From a virus, in the IMG/VR virus record IMGVR_UViG_3300043444_000430, positions 1-21,233 of that record: a stretch of 21,233 nt of DNA; one strand, given 5' to 3'. Shown one piece after another: positions 7,058 through 21,233 of the stretch. A program made the position numbers and the translations under genes. The first letter of the stretch is position 1, and each line of letters begins with the position of its first letter. The notes beneath the pieces are model-generated. The model did not search any database. It had not been told where the DNA came from and worked only from the letters and a program-made list of their open reading frames with translations.

Positions 7058-8388
7058 TACAATGTCCCCAATGCAGGTGTGTTAATTGCAGATATAGCAA
7101 ATACAGTTTGCGCCGTGCCGCCATTAGTGACACGCACACGCCACTGGTTAAGTATACCGTTCGCGGCACTCGAGCCACTCCATTTAAGTGTAGTCGGAAC
7201 GTTCGCCGCTAATGTTCCAGATACAGCCGTGTACCATGTTGCACCACCACTTGGCGCGTGTTGTATCTCAAATCCATTCGAAGCACTAGCTACATCAGAA
7301 ACAGCCGTAGCAACGATATTAAATGCACCGCTTAACGATTGCCCTGTGGATGTGTATACACCAGCACTACCAAGAGCAGTGGCGTTATTAGCGGAACCGT
7401 TACTTGCTGTGGCAGTGATGGTAGCAACAACGCTAGCGGTGTTCGTAACATTGACGCTTAATGCTGTTCCGCTTGTGTTTACAGGGCGCACTAACACCGC
7501 GCTGTTTAAGATAGAGCCGCTGCCTGACATAGTGTTAGATGCACGCTCTGTAGCACTTGTCACGTCAATCATTGATGGTGTTGTGGGTACGATGCAAGGG
7601 CGATAAATATTGTAATCTATCGAGGCTGCAGGTGCCGTACCGCCATGGACAATTCTAAACCGCAAGGCATACCATTTAGTGGGGTCTAAACGCACCCCTT
7701 CACCAGTGAATGGCGCGGTGTTGGATGATGGTGACGTGTTGAGTCCACTGTAAGCATTGCCTGACGTAAAGTTAGAGCCTTGCCCTTCACAAAATAACGA
7801 TAGCCCTTTGGTTGTGAAATTGAATCGATACAAATTACCTGCAATCAAGTTAGGGCTACTACCTAAACGGTTTTGCACCGTGTTTAAAGCAGGCCACGCA
7901 CCAGATGGGTATTGCGCCAACACATCGCCATACGAGCGCACATAATGCAATATTGCGCTATTGCTTGGCTGGTAGCGCATTTGATAACAATTTCGTGCAT
8001 CTTTTACTTGCGCTGATGTGCCTTGTGTAATTACGCAGTTTGCAGGGTCTGAAATGACCTTGCCCGCATCAACCTCGACTATTTCAATATAAAAGTTCTG
8101 GTTTGTTGTGCCCGTGTTTACACTTCTATCAACACCGAAAGTAATCTGCGCACCAAGCTGAAACGCTTTTTTTAATATCAACACGGTTTCACTGTTGGCA
8201 GTTGTGCCACTACTAACAGTATAATAACCCATATTCAAAGCATTGCTACTTCCAGTGCTTGTGGTCATGCCCGTACCAAGAGAAGCATACCAGTTGCTAT
8301 CACTGGTAAGTGTGCCGTTACACGGGGCTTCAAATGGTGTGTCCGTGGTAGTAATTAACTGCGGCATATAGCCATAATATTGCGCCAT
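7057..8388 (-). CDS. Fibre-associated or appendage structural protein
   Basis: This 443-residue protein is rich in Ser, Thr, Asn and Ala. The first 270 residues look like one beta-rich globular unit, possibly a jelly roll. They contain GAQITFGVDRSVNTGT, then NFYIEIVEVDAGKVI and KWYALRFRIVHGGTAPAASI, with alternating hydrophobic strands and aromatic residues that could form a carbohydrate-facing sheet. Residues about 275-443 are a second, lower-complexity beta region (NTSGTALSVNVTNTASVV) ending in a short domain with WRVRVTNGGTAQTVFAI. No enzymatic motif is seen. It is coupled by one-base overlaps to both neighbours, within the cluster between terL and the portal. A tail or head appendage is inferred. 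Receptor or glycan binding is only a possibility. Confidence 0.5.
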   Translation of the reverse strand: MAQYYGYMPQLITTTDTPFEAPCNGTLTSDSNWYASLGTGMTTSTGSSNALNMGYYTVSSGTTANSETVLILKKAFQLGAQITFGVDRSVNTGTTNQNFYIEIVEVDAGKVISDPANCVITQGTSAQVKDARNCYQMRYQPSNSAILHYVRSYGDVLAQYPSGAWPALNTVQNRLGSSPNLIAGNLYRFNFTTKGLSLFCEGQGSNFTSGNAYSGLNTSPSSNTAPFTGEGVRLDPTKWYALRFRIVHGGTAPAASIDYNIYRPCIVPTTPSMIDVTSATERASNTMSGSGSILNSAVLVRPVNTSGTALSVNVTNTASVVATITATASNGSANNATALGSAGVYTSTGQSLSGAFNIVATAVSDVASASNGFEIQHAPSGGATWYTAVSGTLAANVPTTLKWSGSSAANGILNQWRVRVTNGGTAQTVFAISAINTPALGTL

Positions 8389-8705
8389 TAATTGTACTCC
8401 CAGATATTTGCAGCAACATCAACAGCAACAGTTGAAGCTATTTGAATAATATCGCCTACATTACACGGTATGTTTTCGAGCTGCATCGTTGCACCGCCAT
8501 TGACCGAATTAAGATATATATCTTTATGCAGATTCACTGTGTTTGTACCATCGTTCTTGGTGACCGTGATGTATGCTGGACCAATACCACTTGGCATAGA
8601 TACATTGATGTATCTGAAATTAATATTTTTACCAGTTGTGCCCGTGTATATCGTGGTAGCAGTAGTCACCCCCACAAGCTGAGGATTTACAATAACAAGT
8701 GTCAT
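8388..8705 (-). CDS. Small beta-rich appendage protein
   Basis: This 105-residue protein starts MTLVIVNPQLVGVTTATTIY. It has a jelly-roll-like alternation: TTIYTGTTGKNINFRYINVS, then an AYITVTKNDGTNTVNL strand, then a segment with ENIPCNVGDIIQIAS, finishing in IWEYN. The pattern resembles small phage virion proteins whose N-terminal part reads ttlYtvPagkta.vr.i.vcN and which often accompany tail fibres. It overlaps the upstream gene by ATGA and the downstream one by a single base, so it is part of the appendage operon. Whether it is a virion subunit or an assembly factor cannot be told from sequence alone. Confidence 0.5.
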   Translation of the reverse strand: MTLVIVNPQLVGVTTATTIYTGTTGKNINFRYINVSMPSGIGPAYITVTKNDGTNTVNLHKDIYLNSVNGGATMQLENIPCNVGDIIQIASTVAVDVAANIWEYN

Positions 8706-15121: not shown

Positions 15122-15864
15122 TTTATCCCCCATGTTTCATTATCATAGTTTGCCAATAATTCTTTACGTTCCGCATGTAATGCTTGCCGCATCTTCTCTT
15201 GTGCTGCAATCAGCTTATGCAACCAAAACATCGTCATCGGATATAACGGCGTTAGAATGTCATTGACCTGATTAGCCACCATACGCACCTCTTTTTGTGC
15301 ATTGGGTGCAGTACGCAATGCCACGAAATTCATCCACGCATTTAACGTGCCCGTAGCAATAACCTTGGTCATGGTACATTGAGGCAGTAACCGCCGCGCT
15401 GTTTCGTTGGCAATATCGATATCAATCAGGTTGCGGTATGTGGCATATGATGATGCCACGCTATCCGTAACCATTCTATCTAATATCTTATCATCCATAA
15501 CTACACCACTGCCCTGTTTTTTGTTGGTGACAGCTTCACGCAGTTCTACTCGGTCAAATTCACACGCAGACACATAACGATAACTTTTGCTATTGAACGC
15601 TGTATCAGACATCTGCACGCCTATTTTGTGCGTAGACATCTGCGCGAATATATCTAGTGATACCTCAAAAATAAACGATATTGACGGGTGTCTAAACGGC
15701 GATGTGTGACCATCGATAATCAACCATCCAAGCAACCCAAAATCTTTTTTATTCGTGACAAGCTCGCCATTGTTGTCAAAGTTATCAAAAGACACACGGG
15801 CTATTTGTGCGATTTCTTTATCGCTGAATGTGTGATTGTGGTATTTAACGGTTGATTTAGTCAT
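15118..15864 (-). CDS. thyX: Flavin-dependent thymidylate synthase
   Basis: This 248-residue protein should make dTMP from dUMP with methylene-tetrahydrofolate, FAD and NAD(P)H. The start pattern KEIAQIARVSFDN, the HTSPFRHPSISFIFEVSLDI block at residues 53-72, and the C-terminal part (TARRLLPQCTMTKVIATGTL, then MNFVALRTAPNAQKEVRMVA) match ThyX. The signature is divergent. The usual RHR-x7-S region reads THKIGVQMSDTAFNSKSYRY (78-97), with HK in place of HR and about six extra residues before the S-x-R-Y part. The start at 15864 follows AAAAAGGATGCACA, a leader also seen before other genes here. The dCTP deaminase-like gene at the right end would feed the same pathway. Confidence 0.9.
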   Translation of the reverse strand: MTKSTVKYHNHTFSDKEIAQIARVSFDNFDNNGELVTNKKDFGLLGWLIIDGHTSPFRHPSISFIFEVSLDIFAQMSTHKIGVQMSDTAFNSKSYRYVSACEFDRVELREAVTNKKQGSGVVMDDKILDRMVTDSVASSYATYRNLIDIDIANETARRLLPQCTMTKVIATGTLNAWMNFVALRTAPNAQKEVRMVANQVNDILTPLYPMTMFWLHKLIAAQEKMRQALHAERKELLANYDNETWGIK

Positions 15865-15903
15865 TGTGCATCCTTTTTATCCTAGAACGGTAACTTTTAA
15901 TAT

Positions 15904-16374
15904 TTATTCTATTGCCTTATTGTTTTTATGCCAAGTTGAATGACACAAATTACACAGCCATCTAACATCTAATGGTTTGTTGTAATCGTCATGATGAGCT
16001 TCTATTTTTTTTGTGCTTCCACAATTTTCACATTCGTTTTTTCTCATTAAGAATCCATATTTCAAAGCATTTCCAACCATTGTTCTTGCCTTGTATTTCT
16101 TAGGGTGAAGTTCTTTATGTTTTTTTAATGATTTTGCATGGCTGATTTTGTAACTTTCTGTTTTTGCATAATCCTTCCTTGCTTCTACTCTATGAGGTAG
16201 ATTCGCTCTTTTTTTTTCATACTCTTTATAATATTCCTTTTTTTGTTTGTAATTTTTAGATACATCTTTTTTGCAACAGTTTTTACATTTATTTAATCTC
16301 CCATCAGCCATTTTTTTATGAACATAAAAGAAGTCAACAGGAAATACATTTCCGCATTTGAAACATTTTTTCAT
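15904..16374 (-). CDS. HNH endonuclease with N-terminal zinc ribbon
   Basis: This 156-residue basic protein has two parts. The N-terminus MKKCFKCGNVFPVDFFYVHK, with Cys4, Cys7, Cys30 and Cys33, forms a zinc-ribbon-like head. A Lys/Tyr-rich helical linker (about 36-108) follows. Then comes an HNH nuclease core, CENCGSTKKIEAHHDDYN (115-132) and WLCNLCHSTWHKN (139-151), with the HH-D pair and a second CxxCH. This arrangement is common for free-standing phage HNH endonucleases, often intron-less homing enzymes that insert next to replication genes. It lies between ssb and thyX, following a palindrome. It could be a selfish insertion or have a phage role. The start MKKC is close to GGTGAACGGTT, a moderate ribosome site. 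Confidence 0.85.
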   Translation of the reverse strand: MKKCFKCGNVFPVDFFYVHKKMADGRLNKCKNCCKKDVSKNYKQKKEYYKEYEKKRANLPHRVEARKDYAKTESYKISHAKSLKKHKELHPKKYKARTMVGNALKYGFLMRKNECENCGSTKKIEAHHDDYNKPLDVRWLCNLCHSTWHKNNKAIE

Positions 16375-16385
16375 AACCGTTCACC

Positions 16386-16414
16386 AGTGTGTTAAAATGG
16401 AACTTTAACACACT
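16386..16414. repeat. 11-bp stem hairpin between ssb and HNH gene
   Basis: AGTGTGTTAAA at 16386-16396 and TTTAACACACT at 16404-16414 are perfect complements with a seven-base loop. No long T run follows on either strand, so it is not a clear intrinsic terminator. It sits 12 bases before the HNH start, where it could limit translation or mark an insertion edge. Confidence 0.6.
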
Positions 16415-16425
16415 TTGCTTGTAAA

Positions 16426-16443
16426 TGCCATTTTAAAATGGCA
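16426..16443. repeat. 18-bp perfect palindrome over the ssb stop codon
   Basis: TGCCATTTTAAAATGGCA reads the same on both strands and includes the TAA stop of ssb. A dyad of this kind often binds a dimeric protein. It shares TTAAAATGG with the hairpin at 16386-16414. Chance within AT-rich sequence cannot be excluded. Confidence 0.55.
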
Positions 16444-16876
16444 CGTCATCCGAAATATCATCGATAGCCACGGCGGTTTTACCCGTGTCTGGCTGCTCGA
16501 TTGCGTCATTGTCATCATCGTTGTTATTGCGTCCACCAAGTAGCTTTAATTGGCAGTTGTATCCATCAAGAACAATTTGCGTTGCCTTTTTTTGAATGCC
16601 GTCCTTGTCCGTGTATTCGTTGGTTCTGATTGTGCCTTCGATATAAATAAAGCTGCCTTTGCGTACGTATTGGTCAACGACATTGGCAATAGCTTCATTG
16701 AAAATAATGATATTATGCCATTCGGTTTTCTCTTTTTTTTCACCTGTGGCTTTATCGCGCCATGGTTCACTTGTCGCAATGCTTAATTTGATTATTTTTT
16801 TACCTAATTTTGTGTACGATACCTCTGGATCACGACCTACACGCCCGATTAATGTTGCTCGATTTAAACTTGTCAT
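16433..16876 (-). CDS. ssb: Single-stranded DNA-binding protein
   Basis: This 147-residue protein has a full OB fold: MTSLNRATLIGRVGRDPEVS at the start, then KLSIATSEPWRDKATGEKKE and TEWHNIIIFNEAIANVV, IEGTIRTNEYTDKDGIQKK. A low-complexity linker rich in Asn and Asp follows from about residue 115. The protein ends with the acidic tip ISDDVPF, like the partner-binding tail of bacterial SSB. It would coat single strands in replication and recombination, with the VapE ATPase and the nucleases as likely partners. AGGTGA precedes the ATG at 16876. The stop codon lies within an 18-bp palindrome. The gene follows a 39-residue membrane peptide, with only seven bases between them. Confidence 0.95.
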   Translation of the reverse strand: MTSLNRATLIGRVGRDPEVSYTKLGKKIIKLSIATSEPWRDKATGEKKEKTEWHNIIIFNEAIANVVDQYVRKGSFIYIEGTIRTNEYTDKDGIQKKATQIVLDGYNCQLKLLGGRNNNDDDNDAIEQPDTGKTAVAIDDISDDVPF

Positions 16877-16883
16877 ACGTCAC

Positions 16884-17003
16884 CTATTTGAAAAAAACGA
16901 GAATTGTAAGCAATAGAACTATTGCCCACATAGGACCTATGGTAATAAACAAACCCCATAGTAACAGCCCTAGAATTATCAGGATAATAAACACAAGTGG
17001 CAT
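16884..17003 (-). CDS. 39-residue membrane peptide
   Basis: An ATG at 17003 directly follows the TAA of the HTH gene (TAAATG), and GGAG lies six bases upstream. The product is MPLVFIILIILGLLLWGLFI, then TIGPMWAIVLLLTILVFFK, in total 39 residues. It is almost wholly hydrophobic, with two membrane spans joined by a GP turn. It has one charged residue, the final Lys. The stop lies seven bases before ssb. The good ribosome site, the tight fit between two genes and the strongly biased composition support a real gene. It could be a holin-like or stress peptide, or a membrane-acting inhibitor, but no function can be assigned from sequence. Confidence 0.65.
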   Translation of the reverse strand: MPLVFIILIILGLLLWGLFITIGPMWAIVLLLTILVFFK

Positions 17004-17210
17004 TTATTGCTCCAGCTCTGCTTTAATTGCGTAAAAAGCGTTAACGTGGTCTATGTTTTTCATTTTGCGATTACCATTAGCCCACAAGCTCACCATTGAA
17101 TAAGACACTGGTACGCCTATTTTTGTTGACCTATCCGCATAGGCGCGTGTGGTAAGCCCGTATTTAAGCAAGAACTGTTCAAACTCTTGCTTTGTTGGTG
17201 ATTTTAGCAT
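17004..17210 (-). CDS. Small Cro/XRE-like helix-turn-helix protein
   Basis: This 68-residue protein reads MLKSPTKQEFEQFLLKYGLT, then RAYADRSTKIGVPVSYSMVS, then LWANGNRKMKNI. The IGVPVSYSMVSLWANGNRKM segment fits the XRE pattern of a turn, a recognition helix with S.VS.W, and a G.R.M end. It is short, with no room for a dimerisation or cleavage domain, so a Cro-type or small antirepressor-like role is plausible. The start overlaps the stop of the acidic gene by one base (TAATG). It lies downstream of the operator at 17542, which it may bind. That link is inferred from position and has not been shown. Confidence 0.6.
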   Translation of the reverse strand: MLKSPTKQEFEQFLLKYGLTTRAYADRSTKIGVPVSYSMVSLWANGNRKMKNIDHVNAFYAIKAELEQ

Positions 17211-17497
17211 TAAGAATCACCGTCCTGAATATCCTGCTTTTGCTGCTCGATAAATGCCTTGATTTCGTCGATAGTCGCAAGAATCTCACCAGACCAGCCA
17301 ATTTCATTAGTATGCTCAAATTCTGTATATTCATTGCTTTTTGCAATTAAAAATTCTTCTTCAGTTTCTTCGCAATACACCAAAACATGCTCTTCAGCAT
17401 ATTGAGTAATCTGCTCAAACCATAACTCGAATAAATCATGGTCTAAGAGGTTCTTTACATCATGAATAAAATCTTCAAATTCCTGTTTGCTCGTCAT
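17210..17497 (-). CDS. Very acidic 95-residue phage protein
   Basis: I use the ATG at 17497 (MTSKQEFEDFIHDVKNLLDH...). AAGGAG lies ten bases ahead, and the consensus promoter P1 lies directly upstream. A longer reading to 17554 would begin inside that promoter. By my count the protein has 26 Asp/Glu and five Lys, with no Arg, a net charge near -21 at 95 residues. A core YAEEHVLVYCEETEEEFLIA suggests a beta sheet with acidic edges, flanked by helices. This resembles the composition of DNA-mimic and other inhibitor proteins of phages (Ocr and Arn type), but no sequence family is recognised. It is the first gene after P1, followed by the HTH gene. Confidence 0.6.
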   Translation of the reverse strand: MTSKQEFEDFIHDVKNLLDHDLFELWFEQITQYAEEHVLVYCEETEEEFLIAKSNEYTEFEHTNEIGWSGEILATIDEIKAFIEQQKQDIQDGDS

Positions 17498-17525
17498 TGT
17501 TGTGCATCTCCTTGTTTGATAACTG

Positions 17526-17554
17526 ATTATATCATGATTGTTTAATTGTGTCAA
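17526..17554 (-). promoter_or_regulatory. Consensus sigma70 promoter P1
   Basis: On the minus strand TTGACA at 17554-17549, a 17-base spacer, and TATAAT at 17531-17526 match the consensus exactly. It faces the acidic-protein gene starting at 17497. The -35 box overlaps both an operator-like dyad and the stop codon of the 77-residue gene. Confidence 0.85.
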
Positions 17555-17561
17555 CGATTAC
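17542..17561. promoter_or_regulatory. Operator-like dyad O1 at P1
   Basis: TTAATTGTGTCAACGATTAC is a near-palindrome with two mismatches to the perfect dyad at 18267. It covers the -35 region of P1, where a bound dimer would block RNA polymerase. The small HTH protein at 17004-17210 is a candidate ligand. Confidence 0.6.
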
Positions 17562-17784
17562 TTACGATATTGTGCCGATAAAGAATAACAATCTTGCTAT
17601 CGACAATAGCAAAAGCAATTCGACCAACTCCAGTTGATACCGCGAGTCCTTTTGTTTTCTTTTTTAATGCACGAACAGTACGACGACCCGTGAACAGTGT
17701 TGCCATTTGCTTGCTGTCATGTTTGGCAATGTAAATCGGCGTGTGTACGTCATTGAGCATGGCCTGAATTTCATCATCGGTCAT
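17551..17784 (-). CDS. Small basic hypothetical protein
   Basis: This 77-residue protein reads MTDDEIQAMLNDVHTPIYIA, then HDSKQMATLFTGRRTVRALK and KKTKGLAVSTGVGRIAFAIV, ending YRHNIVSNR. The N-terminus is acidic and the rest is basic, with a beta hairpin-like end. The first 14 bases (ATGACCGATGATGA) are identical to the first 14 of the membrane protein gene upstream. AAGGAT lies nine bases ahead of the start. The stop codon overlaps the -35 box of P1. No domain is recognised. It lies after the membrane protein, from promoter P2, and might work with it. Confidence 0.55.
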   Translation of the reverse strand: MTDDEIQAMLNDVHTPIYIAKHDSKQMATLFTGRRTVRALKKKTKGLAVSTGVGRIAFAIVDSKIVILYRHNIVSNR

Positions 17785-17786
17785 TT

Positions 17787-18224
17787 TTATTTATCCTTAT
17801 CGCGAAACATTTCTGTACGTTCTCTTAGGTCGTATGCAAAAAAGCTTTCTGGGTGTACTATCTTTAATAATTCAAGCCGCTTTTTACCTATTTTTGTAAA
17901 AAACAATGAATACAGGTAACCCCACCAAAGCCCCATAAAAATTGCCGTTCCAGATAAAACCTCAATGGGAAATTTTAAAAGCAGGAACAGATAACCATAA
18001 AGCATAATGATAAGAGGCATACATGCGGCAATAAAAGAAATAAAAAGAATCATACAAACAAAAAAAGCTATTTTTTCTATAAAGAGGTCAATAAAACCAA
18101 CAGCAATCAGCCAATAAGGTAATTTATGCCCTCTAATTCTGTTAGCGCAATAAACAAAATACCCAATCGGCATAAGTGATAATAATATCATCACTGCATA
18201 CTTTGTCGCGTCATCATCGGTCAT
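17787..18224 (-). CDS. Polytopic membrane protein
   Basis: I start at the ATG at 18224 (145 residues). AAAGGAGG ends six bases ahead, while the ATG at 18230 directly abuts it. After MTDDDATK come hydrophobic segments at about residues 9-26 and 37-50, a long one at about 52-83 (possibly two spans), and one at about 88-109, giving four or five spans. The C-terminal 35 residues are soluble and charged (TKIGKKRLELLKIVHPESFF onward). There is no signal peptide. It is the first gene after P2, next to a small basic gene. Polytopic small proteins at an early position can act in superinfection exclusion, but no family match supports that here. Confidence 0.65.
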   Translation of the reverse strand: MTDDDATKYAVMILLSLMPIGYFVYCANRIRGHKLPYWLIAVGFIDLFIEKIAFFVCMILFISFIAACMPLIIMLYGYLFLLLKFPIEVLSGTAIFMGLWWGYLYSLFFTKIGKKRLELLKIVHPESFFAYDLRERTEMFRDKDK

Positions 18225-18250
18225 GTGCATCCTCCTTTGTCCGATACATC

Positions 18251-18279
18251 ATCGTACCATAGCTGTTTAATTGTGTCAA
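18251..18279 (-). promoter_or_regulatory. Promoter P2, twin of P1
   Basis: On the minus strand TTGACA at 18279-18274, a 17-base spacer and TACGAT at 18256-18251 (four of six matches to the -10 consensus). The first 16 bases after and including the -35 box equal those of P1. It faces the membrane protein gene at 18224. Confidence 0.7.
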
Positions 18280-18286
18280 CAATTAA
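18267..18286. promoter_or_regulatory. Operator-like perfect dyad O2 at P2
   Basis: TTAATTGTGTCAACAATTAA has perfect 8-bp arms around a GTCA centre. It covers the -35 box of P2 and is almost the same as O1 at 17542. A degraded version, TTTAAATTGTGTAAC, occurs at about 18346-18360. Confidence 0.65.
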
Positions 18287-18323
18287 TTTGCATTGAGGCG
18301 CATGTTTTTAGGTGACAACCATT

Positions 18324-18344
18324 GACCACCACGCGACCACCACG
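18324..18344. repeat. GACCACCACG direct repeat
   Basis: GACCACCACG occurs at 18324-18333 and 18335-18344, separated by one base. A related inverted block, GGTGGTTGTGGTGGTTATG, lies at about 18391-18409. Similar ACCAC units lie near 18695 and 18770. Confidence 0.5.
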
Positions 18345-18474
18345 GTTTAAATTGTGTAACTGCCTGATATTGTTATGTTTTTATGCTTATGGTGGTTGTG
18401 GTGGTTATGAATCACCATATAGCTTTCCCGAAACGATTTAGCCAAGAAATCTGCCGTTGTTGAATTTTGCAATC

Positions 18475-18578
18475 AGTGTTCTTGAGCATGAACACTGAAG
18501 AACACTTAAGAACACTGAATTTTTTCGCGTAAGTCATTGATATATCTATATATTATATATACAAGTGGTGAAGTGTTC
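18475..18578. repeat. GAACACT iteron-like array
   Basis: GAACACT occurs at 18490, 18500 and 18510, exactly 10 bp apart, so all face the same side of the helix. AGTGTTC, its reverse complement, is at 18475-18481 and 18572-18578. The first two units form a dyad with 7-bp arms. An AT-rich stretch lies between the main array and the last unit. Confidence 0.65.
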
Positions 18579-18652
18579 TTGTTTATAAGAAAAATAAAAA
18601 CACCATATTTAGGGGTATTAGCGTATCGCGCTCTATATAAATCAATGACTTA
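18530..18652. repeat. TAAGTCATTGAT long-range inverted repeat
   Basis: TAAGTCATTGAT at 18530-18541 and ATCAATGACTTA at 18641-18652 are perfect 12-bp complements with 99 bases between. A third copy of the core, CAATGACTTA, lies at 18737-18746. The region between the arms is AT-rich. Confidence 0.6.
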
Positions 18653-18787
18653 GCTTATAGTGTTATATAAATTGCATAGGGCTAAATAGCCGCAACACCA
18701 CTTATGACCACTGATTTGCGTTTTTTTCTTATTTCACAATGACTTATGTGTGTTTTTGCCAAGTGTTGCTCACCACTGGCTAGGCAT

Positions 18788-18815
18788 AAAAAAAGCACCC
18801 GTTTTATGGGGTGCT
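18788..18815 (-). terminator. Intrinsic terminator after VapE gene
   Basis: On the minus strand a 7-bp stem, AGCACCC with GGGTGCT (plus-strand 18794-18800 and 18809-18815), has an eight-base loop and runs into seven T. It lies 13 bases past the VapE stop and has the usual form of a Rho-independent terminator. Confidence 0.8.
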
Positions 18816-18828
18816 CTTGGTGTTCTGG

Positions 18829-20133
18829 TTACTTGAATGGCGGCATAAAATACAACGTCCTGCCGTCTCGTATTCGTGTTTGTGTGTTCATTGAGCGCAG
18901 CACCGCCGCGCAGCGGTTCACCTCGCGATTACCTTTTGCAATATCCTTTACACCAATGTGTGTAGCCACCTGTGTTGCGGTCATTTCTGTTGTCGGGTTT
19001 CTCGACCAGTCAAATACAGTGCTGATATTCTCCTCGATGGGGCATACCTGTGTGTGACCACGTAAATGTTGTTGTAGCTTCTCGGTTTCACTGGTATTTA
19101 GCCAGTATGGTGCCTTAGTATTGTACCAGAATTGCACCTCTGCCCAAACCTGTTGCATGTCGAACTTGTGACGATAGTCAATTTTATCCGCAGGAATGAC
19201 CCAGAAACGCCTGTTTCCCGTGGTGTCGTGCAAAAACTTATAATCATTCACACTAGAGAAGAAAACCGTTCTACGGGCAAATTTCGTGCTTCTCTTATCG
19301 TATGGCAGGCGGTACACATCGCAAGAATTTGTGATGAATGCCTTAAGCTGTGCAATGTCGCTCTTGCGGAATGTTGCATCTAATTCGCCTAGCTCTACCA
19401 GCCAATGTTGTAACGCTTGGTGTACGCTGTCTTTATCCGATGGGTTCAATATAACGCCTGCCTTGGTGGCCTCTAAATTTCGCGGCACAAGCGTGTTAAA
19501 CCACCGTGTTTTTCCGATTCCTTGGTCTCCTTGGAATACTAGCACCCCGTGCGCCTCTACGCCGTCAGGCTCGACTAAAGCGGCATATGCTGAAATCATC
19601 CATTTTCGAATTAACACATCGCGTAATGCTGTATCTTTGGTTGTGATAGTGGCAAAGAAATCATCAAGGCGCGACTCACCGTCCCAAGGTTTGCTATTTA
19701 TCCAATCAAGAACGGGGTTAAATTTATTAGCGCGTGCGATTGTGTTTATAAAACTAGGCACATCGCCAGTTTGCATATTGTAATAATTGCAATGGCTTTT
19801 AATTTTGGATAATTGCTCCTCGCTGTAATCCACTGGCTTGTCATCGATATACAACACTGTTTCGCGCCGCTGTTCGTTGTATTTTGGTTTTATGCCCATA
19901 CTATCGAGCAATGCCGTAAGATTTTCGAGTGTAGTTTTCACAGAACGCTCTTTGCGTTCAGAATAATGAAAAAATTCAATTTCTTTTTTTGAGGCTTTTT
20001 TAATTGCATTATTTTTTTCTTCTTGCTCTTTATCTCGCTCTAAAACAAGAGAATCTAATTCATCATTAGATAAATCAGAATTGTTTTTTTCATTGACATA
20101 AATATCTGTCAATGGCATATAATCATCCTGCAT
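18829..20133 (-). CDS. VapE/VirE-type P-loop replication ATPase
   Basis: Starts at ATG 20133 (434 residues) or ATG 20118, the latter with AGGA upstream, are both likely. A reading to 20196 crosses a hairpin. After a charged N-terminal region, the core starts around NPVLDWINSKPWDGESRLDD. A Walker A GDQGIGKT lies at about residues 202-209, followed by a Walker B-like WLVELGELD at about 244-252, VFFSSVNDYKFL and GNRRFWVI at about 306-313. This is the VirE/VapE fold, which acts as a helicase or loader and is often fused to a primase. No primase motif is evident here. The gene ends at a terminator followed by the repeat-rich region at 18287-18787. A phage replication initiator role is inferred. 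Confidence 0.8.
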   Translation of the reverse strand: MQDDYMPLTDIYVNEKNNSDLSNDELDSLVLERDKEQEEKNNAIKKASKKEIEFFHYSERKERSVKTTLENLTALLDSMGIKPKYNEQRRETVLYIDDKPVDYSEEQLSKIKSHCNYYNMQTGDVPSFINTIARANKFNPVLDWINSKPWDGESRLDDFFATITTKDTALRDVLIRKWMISAYAALVEPDGVEAHGVLVFQGDQGIGKTRWFNTLVPRNLEATKAGVILNPSDKDSVHQALQHWLVELGELDATFRKSDIAQLKAFITNSCDVYRLPYDKRSTKFARRTVFFSSVNDYKFLHDTTGNRRFWVIPADKIDYRHKFDMQQVWAEVQFWYNTKAPYWLNTSETEKLQQHLRGHTQVCPIEENISTVFDWSRNPTTEMTATQVATHIGVKDIAKGNREVNRCAAVLRSMNTQTRIRDGRTLYFMPPFK

Positions 20134-20158
20134 AGGTACTTTCTTTCTAAGAATAATG

Positions 20159-20189
20159 AAACCACCGTGGTTCAGACGGTGGTTTTTTT
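20159..20189. promoter_or_regulatory. Hairpin upstream of VapE gene
   Basis: A 10-bp stem (20159-20168 and 20176-20185) with a seven-base loop is followed on the plus strand by four more T. Read on the plus strand it is a good intrinsic terminator, yet no plus-strand gene is seen. On the minus strand it overlaps the expected start of transcription from the promoter at 20187, so it may be an operator or 5' hairpin. Confidence 0.6.
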
Positions 20190-20215
20190 GTATCAAAACA
20201 AACCATGATTGTCAC
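20187..20215 (-). promoter_or_regulatory. Putative promoter of VapE gene
   Basis: On the minus strand GTGACA at 20215-20210 (five of six to TTGACA), a 17-base spacer, and TACAAA at 20192-20187 (four of six), with TG one base ahead as in an extended -10 element. It points to the VapE gene and overlaps the hairpin at 20159-20189. Confidence 0.5.
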
Positions 20216-20227
20216 GACATATTAAGA

Positions 20228-20515
20228 TTAATCGTCAGGAATAATAATCATGTTATTAGCCACCATATATTCCATGCGATACGCTTCGTATAAATCGCCA
20301 CCAAGATGATAAACAGGGCAGCCCTGCTCGATTTTCATTTCAATCATACGCTCGGCATTATGCCATACTGCTGTTGGTACCTCTAATGCGCCGATAGGGT
20401 GCGCCATCGCCCACACAATCGATGCGGTCACTGGGTCAGTATTGCTATATCTTGCTTCAAATTCATGCCAATCATCTTCGAAAAAGGCATTGATTTTATG
20501 CCCTGAATAGGTCAT
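20228..20515 (-). CDS. Hypothetical phage protein
   Basis: The ATG at 20515 (95 residues, MTYSGHKINAFFEDDWHEFE...) has AGGGAT ahead and is preferred over a reading to 20542. The protein is acidic at the N-terminus. It contains NTDPVTASIVWAMAHPIGAL and HNAERMIEMKIEQGCPVYHL, and ends MIIIPDD. There are single histidines and cysteines but no evident metal site, and no membrane span. It lies between a nuclease and the VapE gene, apparently with its own promoter-like element and hairpin upstream. I do not recognise the family. A role in replication is suggested only by place. Confidence 0.5.
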   Translation of the reverse strand: MTYSGHKINAFFEDDWHEFEARYSNTDPVTASIVWAMAHPIGALEVPTAVWHNAERMIEMKIEQGCPVYHLGGDLYEAYRMEYMVANNMIIIPDD

Positions 20516-20547
20516 TATAATCCCTGTAGTTACTGAGAACACACCTT

Positions 20548-20578
20548 AGACACCGAGTACGAATCGGTGTCTTTTTTT
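20548..20578. promoter_or_regulatory. Hairpin upstream of gene at 20228-20515
   Basis: A 9-bp stem, AGACACCGA at 20548-20556 with TCGGTGTCT at 20564-20572, has a seven-base loop and is followed on the plus strand by six T. As with the VapE hairpin, on the minus strand it overlaps a -10-like TATAAA with an upstream TG (20576-20584). It is either a plus-strand terminator or a control element. Confidence 0.6.
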
Positions 20579-20584
20579 ATACCA
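20576..20584 (-). promoter_or_regulatory. Possible extended -10 promoter element
   Basis: TGGTATAAA on the minus strand resembles an extended -10 box followed by a run of A. No good -35 box is found at 16 to 18 bases. It is reported because its arrangement with the hairpin copies that upstream of the VapE gene. Confidence 0.3.
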
Positions 20585-20586
20585 TA

Positions 20587-20991
20587 TTATCCGTGATGCA
20601 TAAGCTCCATTTTATTCCATGAATTCAATGGCGCCAAGTCATTGATTTCCCTCATTAATAAATGAATATTTCCTTTGCGCTCAAAAGCAAGCCACGCATG
20701 TTGTGCCGACCATGCACAATCATGGTTTTGTTTTTTGCTGAAGAAGGTAACAGATTTTTTTAATTGCTGTTTCCCCTTTGCTATTGCATAGCCATTCCAT
20801 GTCTTTTGTTCTTTAATTTCTAAAAATACAACCTCATTGTTTTTGTTTGTCAGTACTGCGTCAATTTCTCCGACAACACGATCCCCCTCATAATATACAA
20901 TGTTTTGTCCGATTATTTCACAATCCATAGTTTTAGCAATTAATTCCGCAATATATTGTTCGTTATTTTGATTTATTGTTGTCTCAAACAT
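20587..20991 (-). CDS. PD-(D/E)XK-like nuclease domain protein
   Basis: This 134-residue protein has the short core of a PD-(D/E)XK enzyme. IVYYEGDRVVGEIDAVLTNK (31-50) carries Glu42 and Asp44, VVFLEIKEQKTW (54-65) gives the E-x-K pair at 58 and 60, and AIAKGKQQLKKS (69-80) supplies the conserved Gln and basic residues. N-terminal helix QYIAELIAKTM completes the fold. Proteins of this design include Holliday junction resolvase-like and restriction-like enzymes, and phage recombination nucleases. It is intact by eye and preceded by AGGG at suitable spacing. Its place near the replication ATPase suggests DNA processing. The exact substrate cannot be deduced. Confidence 0.6.
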   Translation of the reverse strand: MFETTINQNNEQYIAELIAKTMDCEIIGQNIVYYEGDRVVGEIDAVLTNKNNEVVFLEIKEQKTWNGYAIAKGKQQLKKSVTFFSKKQNHDCAWSAQHAWLAFERKGNIHLLMREINDLAPLNSWNKMELMHHG

Positions 20992-21067
20992 AATTGCACC
21001 CTATGTAGTAAGTCGTGACGAAATGTCACAACTTCAACAATTTTAATGCAATGTAGTTGATATTAGG

Positions 21068-21233
21068 TTAACAAGCTGGTACTGGCATCGGTGGCTGGTT
21101 TTGATATTTGCCGTTGTATGCCGTTACTTTTTTATCCAAGAGCAAGAACCGCACCGCCGCGATAGGATAGCCAAGAGGCAGCGTAAACGTGTTGCTGGTC
21201 GCATTGAATAGCTCTAGTGTCAAATACCCCTGC
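21068..21233 (-). CDS. dcd: dCTP deaminase/dUTPase-family protein (5' end outside window)
   Basis: Only the C-terminal 54 codons are present. They read QGYLTLELFNATSNTFTLPL, then GYPIAAVRFLLLDKKVTAYN, then GKYQNQPPMPVPAC. The G.LTLEL.N....L.L..G..IA..RF pattern and the Y.GKYQ.Q ending are typical of the trimeric dCTP deaminase/dUTPase fold, in particular of dCTP deaminases. Such enzymes turn dCTP into dUTP, or directly into dUMP in bifunctional forms. That would feed the phage ThyX at 15118-15864. The catalytic Glu and nucleotide-binding motifs lie upstream of the window. A dUTPase cannot be fully excluded, though GKYQ favours the deaminase branch. Confidence 0.75.
   Translation of the reverse strand, partial: QGYLTLELFNATSNTFTLPLGYPIAAVRFLLLDKKVTAYNGKYQNQPPMPVPAC

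Follow-up and report, generated by a model that had tools for sequence, protein, structure and literature searches.

Two copies of a single promoter-operator-leader cassette, lying on the minus strand of an incomplete phage genome, probably drive two early operons that are both repressed by a small HTH protein encoded in one of them, an Aca-type autorepressed regulon to which we assign a probability of about 0.58. The window analyzed here is the entire IMG/VR record IMGVR_UViG_3300043444_000430 (21,233 bases). Portal, terminase and major head protein genes were found in the record, and the closest named terminases, approximately 50% identical, are those of podoviruses such as Rhodoferax phage P26218. 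All main genes are carried on the minus strand, where the order runs from a 134-aa nuclease-like gene through a 95-aa gene, a VapE-type helicase and roughly 530 bp without genes to cassette B, followed by the membrane protein, the 77-aa protein and cassette A, and then by the acidic protein, the HTH protein, a 39-aa hydrophobic peptide, a single-strand DNA-binding protein (SSB), an endonuclease and thyX.

The cassettes are located at 17563-17512 (A) and 18288-18237 (B) on the minus strand, and are 75% identical across 52 nt before entering a common AAGGAG-ATGCACA leader. Their promoters and leaders are:

17526 to 17554, minus strand: promoter A, TTGACA, 17 nt, TATAAT, with a TG extended -10 (promoter scoring; predicted start near 17519)
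18251 to 18279, minus strand: promoter B, TTGACA, 17 nt, TACGAT, with a TG extended -10 (promoter scoring; predicted start near 18244)
17498 to 17513, minus strand: leader A, AAGGAGATGCACAACA, ahead of the ATG at 17497 (sequence reading and leader count)
18225 to 18237, minus strand: leader B, AAGGAGGATGCAC, ahead of the ATG at 18224 (sequence reading and leader count)

The initial annotation held that the two cassettes align end to end, and this is borne out by direct reading and by their rank as the top direct repeat within 15800-21233 (52 nt, 75% identity, spacing 725; repeat search); the common core, 17-base spacer, similar -10 and shared leader that it listed are all present. Local alignment of A with B scores 35, compared to a maximum of 20 across 5,000 Markov shuffles. 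With the -35, extended -10, SD and start left unshuffled, none of 20,000 further shuffles reached this score (maximum 32), and the likeness therefore exceeds that of two good promoters plus ribosome sites. The identical core, TTGACACAATTAAACA, has exactly two occurrences on the minus strand (17554-17539 and 18279-18264), and a search of the record tolerating up to three mismatches gave no others. Ten of its bases fall in the spacer after TTGACA and include most of a dyad's right arm. Sigma-70 promoters have no spacer consensus. The strongest conserved block comprises the -35 box, the right dyad arm and the spacer, rather than the -10. Promoter A scores 12/12 and promoter B 10/12, the best two of the region, with one further site, before thyX, also at 10/12; a TG, absent from the initial annotation, stands one base ahead of the -10 in both cassettes. 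The combined leader (AAGGA, 0-2 nt, ATGCACA) was observed twice where 0.005 occurrences are expected by chance. RNA structure in the cassette leaders was not above shuffles, and Rfam returned no match. A third similar leader, AAAAAGGATGCACAATGAC, precedes thyX downstream of the 10/12 promoter, where there is no comparable -35 dyad; the thyX leader AAGGATGCACAATGAC lies at 15875-15860, and MHND-stop there would form a tiny overlapping frame.

In both cassettes the -35 box is covered by a dyad of two 8-bp arms flanking 4 bp:

18267 to 18286, minus strand: candidate operator dyad B, TTAATTGT-TGAC-ACAATTAA, arms perfect (dyad analysis)
17542 to 17561, minus strand: candidate operator dyad A, GTAATCGT-TGAC-ACAATTAA, two mismatches in the left arm (dyad analysis)
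18345 to 18357, minus strand: ACACAATTTAAAC, a candidate additional half-site lying upstream of promoter B, resembling an operator half-site with one inserted base (expected 0.06)

A 20-bp dyad over the -35 box had been reported for both copies, and both are indeed there, that of A with two mismatches, but the supposedly perfect 20 bp of B are palindromic at 16 of 20 positions, the 4-bp TGAC center being asymmetric. A dyad of the quality of B arises by chance in a random 60-nt stretch of the same composition with a probability of about 0.009. The final codons of the 77-aa gene also form the left arm of dyad A.

Downstream of cassette A the following genes are found:

17210 to 17497, minus strand: acidic protein, 95 aa, pI 4.05, 26 Asp/Glu (ORF)
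17004 to 17210, minus strand: 68-aa HTH protein, the proposed repressor for both cassettes (weak profile match and structure model)
16884 to 17003, minus strand: 39-aa hydrophobic (membrane) peptide, directly after the HTH stop (TAAATG; open frame)
16433 to 16876, minus strand: SSB, the next operon A gene (family search)

The acidic-protein gene is the first behind promoter A, in agreement with the initial annotation. The HTH gene, which had been described as following this promoter, does belong to operon A, as its second gene; it begins inside the acidic gene's stop codon (TAATG). The SSB is probably also made from operon A.

In a profile search the 68-aa protein gave a weak match solely to phrog_4779, a transcriptional regulator (E 0.017). 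Its single-sequence model (pLDDT 86, pTM 0.72) contains four helices, and comparison of this model by Foldseek and VIA-align recovered mostly small HTH domains, the nearest folds being C.Kpn2I (Z 8.8), HigA2, POU domains, TP901-1 CI and Aca2, with Aca10 at Z 7.4 (TM 0.76 on the target) and Aca11 at Z 6.3. Fold scores under Z 9 are commonplace for small helical proteins, and these scores thus establish the fold class and not the family. Among PDB sequences, including those of the Aca2, Aca10 and Aca11 structures, no HTH protein matched at E values up to 5. An HTH fold for the 68-aa protein, as proposed earlier, is supported by the structure model. The acidic, 77-aa and membrane proteins gave no convincing family match; matches to the isocitrate lyase, TrkH, HcgF and CreD families were weak and were regarded as noise, and a structure predicted for the acidic protein reached pLDDT 51 and was set aside.

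Operon B contains two genes, the starts of which carry a direct repeat:

17787 to 18224, minus strand: membrane protein, 145 aa, GRAVY 0.71, first gene of operon B (ORF)
17551 to 17784, minus strand: 77-aa basic protein, pI 10.3, second gene of operon B (ORF)
18211 to 18224, minus strand: ATGACCGATGATGA, copy 1 of the 14-nt direct repeat, opening the membrane gene (repeat search)
17771 to 17784, minus strand: ATGACCGATGATGA, copy 2, at the start of the 77-aa gene (repeat search)

The membrane protein gene is led by the cassette as had been described, but operon B also includes the gene for the 77-residue protein, the stop codon of which overlaps promoter A at its -35 box. The ATGACCGATGATGA repeat bounds the membrane gene exactly, and at least two matches, with mismatches allowed, arise in 1 of 100 shuffles. 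We infer that the cassette may originally have served the 77-aa gene, with the membrane gene later inserted, or the start duplicated, behind it.

The promoter activity, binding, repression and timing that make up the proposed mechanism are predictions from these features. After infection, host RNA polymerase would transcribe both operons at once from the sigma-70 promoters, and operon A would yield the acidic protein, the HTH protein, the small membrane peptide and probably the SSB. As it accumulates, the HTH protein, acting as a dimer, would occupy the -35 dyads, block RNA polymerase and close both operons, and its binding to both dyads is plausible. As in acr-aca operons, autorepression would set in with a delay and limit expression to an early pulse; duplication of the cassette would have placed the second operon under the same control. 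Cassette A combines a perfect -10 with the poorer operator and cassette B a weaker -10 with the perfect operator, and B would therefore be repressed first and more tightly; the poorer operator A would let the repressor hold itself at a working level. Repression by the HTH protein is supported by the likeness of the cassettes beyond the promoter boxes, by the presence of a -35 dyad in both and by the best promoter scores of the region, as well as by the TAATG-coupled HTH gene within operon A, with its confident model and its resemblance to small HTH regulators. It is weakened by the poor family match (E 0.017), by the lack of specificity of Z scores below 9, and by a left arm in dyad A that is both coding and degenerate.

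Further support comes from a second locus with the same architecture and unrelated sequence. A survey for a sigma-70 promoter followed by an SD and a start was made over 165 sequences, the window included (1.77 Mb, redundant), and yielded 460 candidates, seven of which have a perfect dyad with arms of at least 8 bp over the -35. Several loci have pairs of similar promoters; among the pairs listed, as we read them, both members have a good -35 dyad only in the window and in the locus L064. The VapE of L064 is 37% identical to that of the window, and the sequences TAGGTGTTGACATCAACACTTA and TAGGTGTTGACATTAACACCTA cover the -35 boxes of two of its promoters (7099-7120 and 8380-8401), a 22-mer being found at both sites and in none of 200 shuffles. 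The first of these promoters drives an ArdC-type anti-restriction gene (PF08401, E 1e-19; phrog_7245, E 2e-58). Since the dyad sequences of L064 are unrelated to those of the window, the two share a design and not homology, and as a single case met after many loci were inspected, L064 cannot show that the design marks anti-defense genes. A serine recombinase gene is located at the end of the L064 locus.

An unlikely explanation is that the cassettes are only strong early promoters with a favored ribosome site, which recombination copied when genes were inserted; the dyad would then be a by-product and no operator. Promoter-leader duplications without dyads do occur in other sampled phage loci (for example L020), the leader before thyX lacks a -35 dyad, and the exact flanking of the membrane gene by the 14-nt repeat would fit a region shuffled by recombination. 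A by-product would not account for a conserved block that centers on the -35, right arm and spacer and not on the -10, nor for the rarity of perfect 8-bp dyads at this position (7/460) and the HTH gene inside the operon. It is improbable that the HTH protein instead activates transcription or belongs to a lysis-lysogeny switch as a Cro-type component: its size and fold are Cro-like, and upstream of it are a VapE helicase gene and a non-coding region, but the dyad over the -35 favors repression, the main genes are unidirectional, and no integrase or CI-type gene was present among the proteins scanned from this incomplete 21-kb record, the smaller frames of which were scanned in part. A palindrome at the -35 of an early phage promoter can be a binding site for host proteins, and a host regulator reading the dyads in place of the HTH protein would weaken the case for autorepression. 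It is nevertheless very improbable that the dyads are operators for a host transcription factor through which the phage senses the physiological state of its host, as the near-operator sequence TAATYGTTGACACAATTAA gave only 8 scattered matches in 85,000 genomes, in unrelated phyla; being so few and in unrelated hosts, they are attributed to chance.

No match to the same operator core was found in IMG/VR. The 16-mer TTGACACAATTAAACA matched 50 IMG/VR stretches, about the chance level, among which no promoter cassette was seen by eye. For the membrane, 77-aa, acidic and HTH proteins, no relatives were found in the public collections searched for each, so the comparison with related phages suggested in the initial annotation speaks neither for nor against the operators. 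A 19,382-base IMG/VR contig (L071) is, judging by its 100% identical terminase (TerL), the same virus; it spans from approximately window position 16111 to about 3.3 kb past base 1 and stops short of the promoter module. In all other loci of TerL relatives the small genes of the module are absent.

The view in the initial annotation that this combination was unfamiliar is too strong, since acr-aca operons (PMC9410906) and plasmid p576 (PMC8708921) have such designs; the control module is of an ordinary kind, and it is the genes here that are unfamiliar. In acr-aca operons (Aca1-10) one or more small genes are followed by a gene for a single-domain HTH protein of 60-70 aa, the Acas associated with Acr being mostly 60-65 aa, and in each bacterial Aca family tested the core promoter contains an inverted repeat and is repressed by the Aca (PMC9410906). 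The window likewise has a TAATG-coupled gene for a 68-aa protein with a four-helix model and an inverted repeat inside a sigma-70 core promoter, with autorepression as the proposed mechanism; it differs in having no known acr gene, an HTH protein without sequence match to the Acas in the PDB, and a second operon with the same promoter-operator. On p576, several operons, including that of the repressor itself, are under copies of one repressor-bound promoter, an establishment regulon (EGeRS2 and its repressor) in which the repressor's own promoter is repressed less strictly (PMC8708921). The same is proposed here, with two promoter copies and the HTH protein as the presumed repressor. The p576 sites are paired heptamers (TTATCCC) just upstream of the -35, in contrast to a single dyad over it, and p576 is a plasmid with ardC, whereas the phage window has none. 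The early regulatory sequences of SIRV2 type with Aca8 also place a common sequence before many small early genes, with repression by an encoded HTH protein proposed, but in an archaeal virus with TATA/BRE promoters and 11 copies as opposed to two (PMC11065993). Cluster K mycobacteriophages carry a repeated start-associated sequence with AGGAG (SAS/ESAS), with an inverted repeat upstream in about half, which is thought to act in translation initiation (PMC3203893). These number 11-19 copies of the 13-bp GGGATAGGAGCCC, with 17-bp inverted repeats and a variable spacer; the window has two or three copies of an AAGGAG-ATGCACA leader instead and does not belong to this class.

If repression by the HTH protein is right, the window would provide a small, new repressor whose two natural operators differ in quality, and a compact example of two operons shut off at different points by the same phage repressor. 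The general idea linking shared early regulatory sequences to anti-defense genes (PMC11065993) would then extend from archaeal viruses and plasmids to podoviruses with uncharacterized early genes. By analogy with these systems, a tentative and rather doubtful extension is that an Aca-like repressor of a new family controls a new counter-defense set made up of the acidic protein (perhaps a DNA mimic), the 77-aa basic protein and the membrane protein, and that the twin-operator design recurs, in different sequences, in other VapE phages (L064 with ArdC); searching for paired -35 dyads would then uncover new anti-defense genes. That the first genes are anti-defense genes has a similarly low probability.

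The stretch of about 530 bp without genes (18290-18829), just downstream of the VapE helicase gene and of a terminator-like hairpin with T7 (18815-18787, minus strand), looks like a replication origin with iterons. It contains GAACACTGAA three times head to tail (18490-18519, one copy mismatched) with inverted copies nearby, as well as two copies of GACCACCACG. The sequence is AT-rich between 18540 and 18660, and 18530-18548 forms a 19-nt inverted repeat with 18634-18652. The 134-aa protein at 20587-20991 is likely a small nuclease and shows weak matches to DUF4143, the NucS C-terminal domain and the PADLOC candidate family PDC-M29B (E 3e-7). On the plus strand, opposite to the main gene direction, two strong terminator-like hairpins with T-runs are found at 20158-20186 and 20548-20572.
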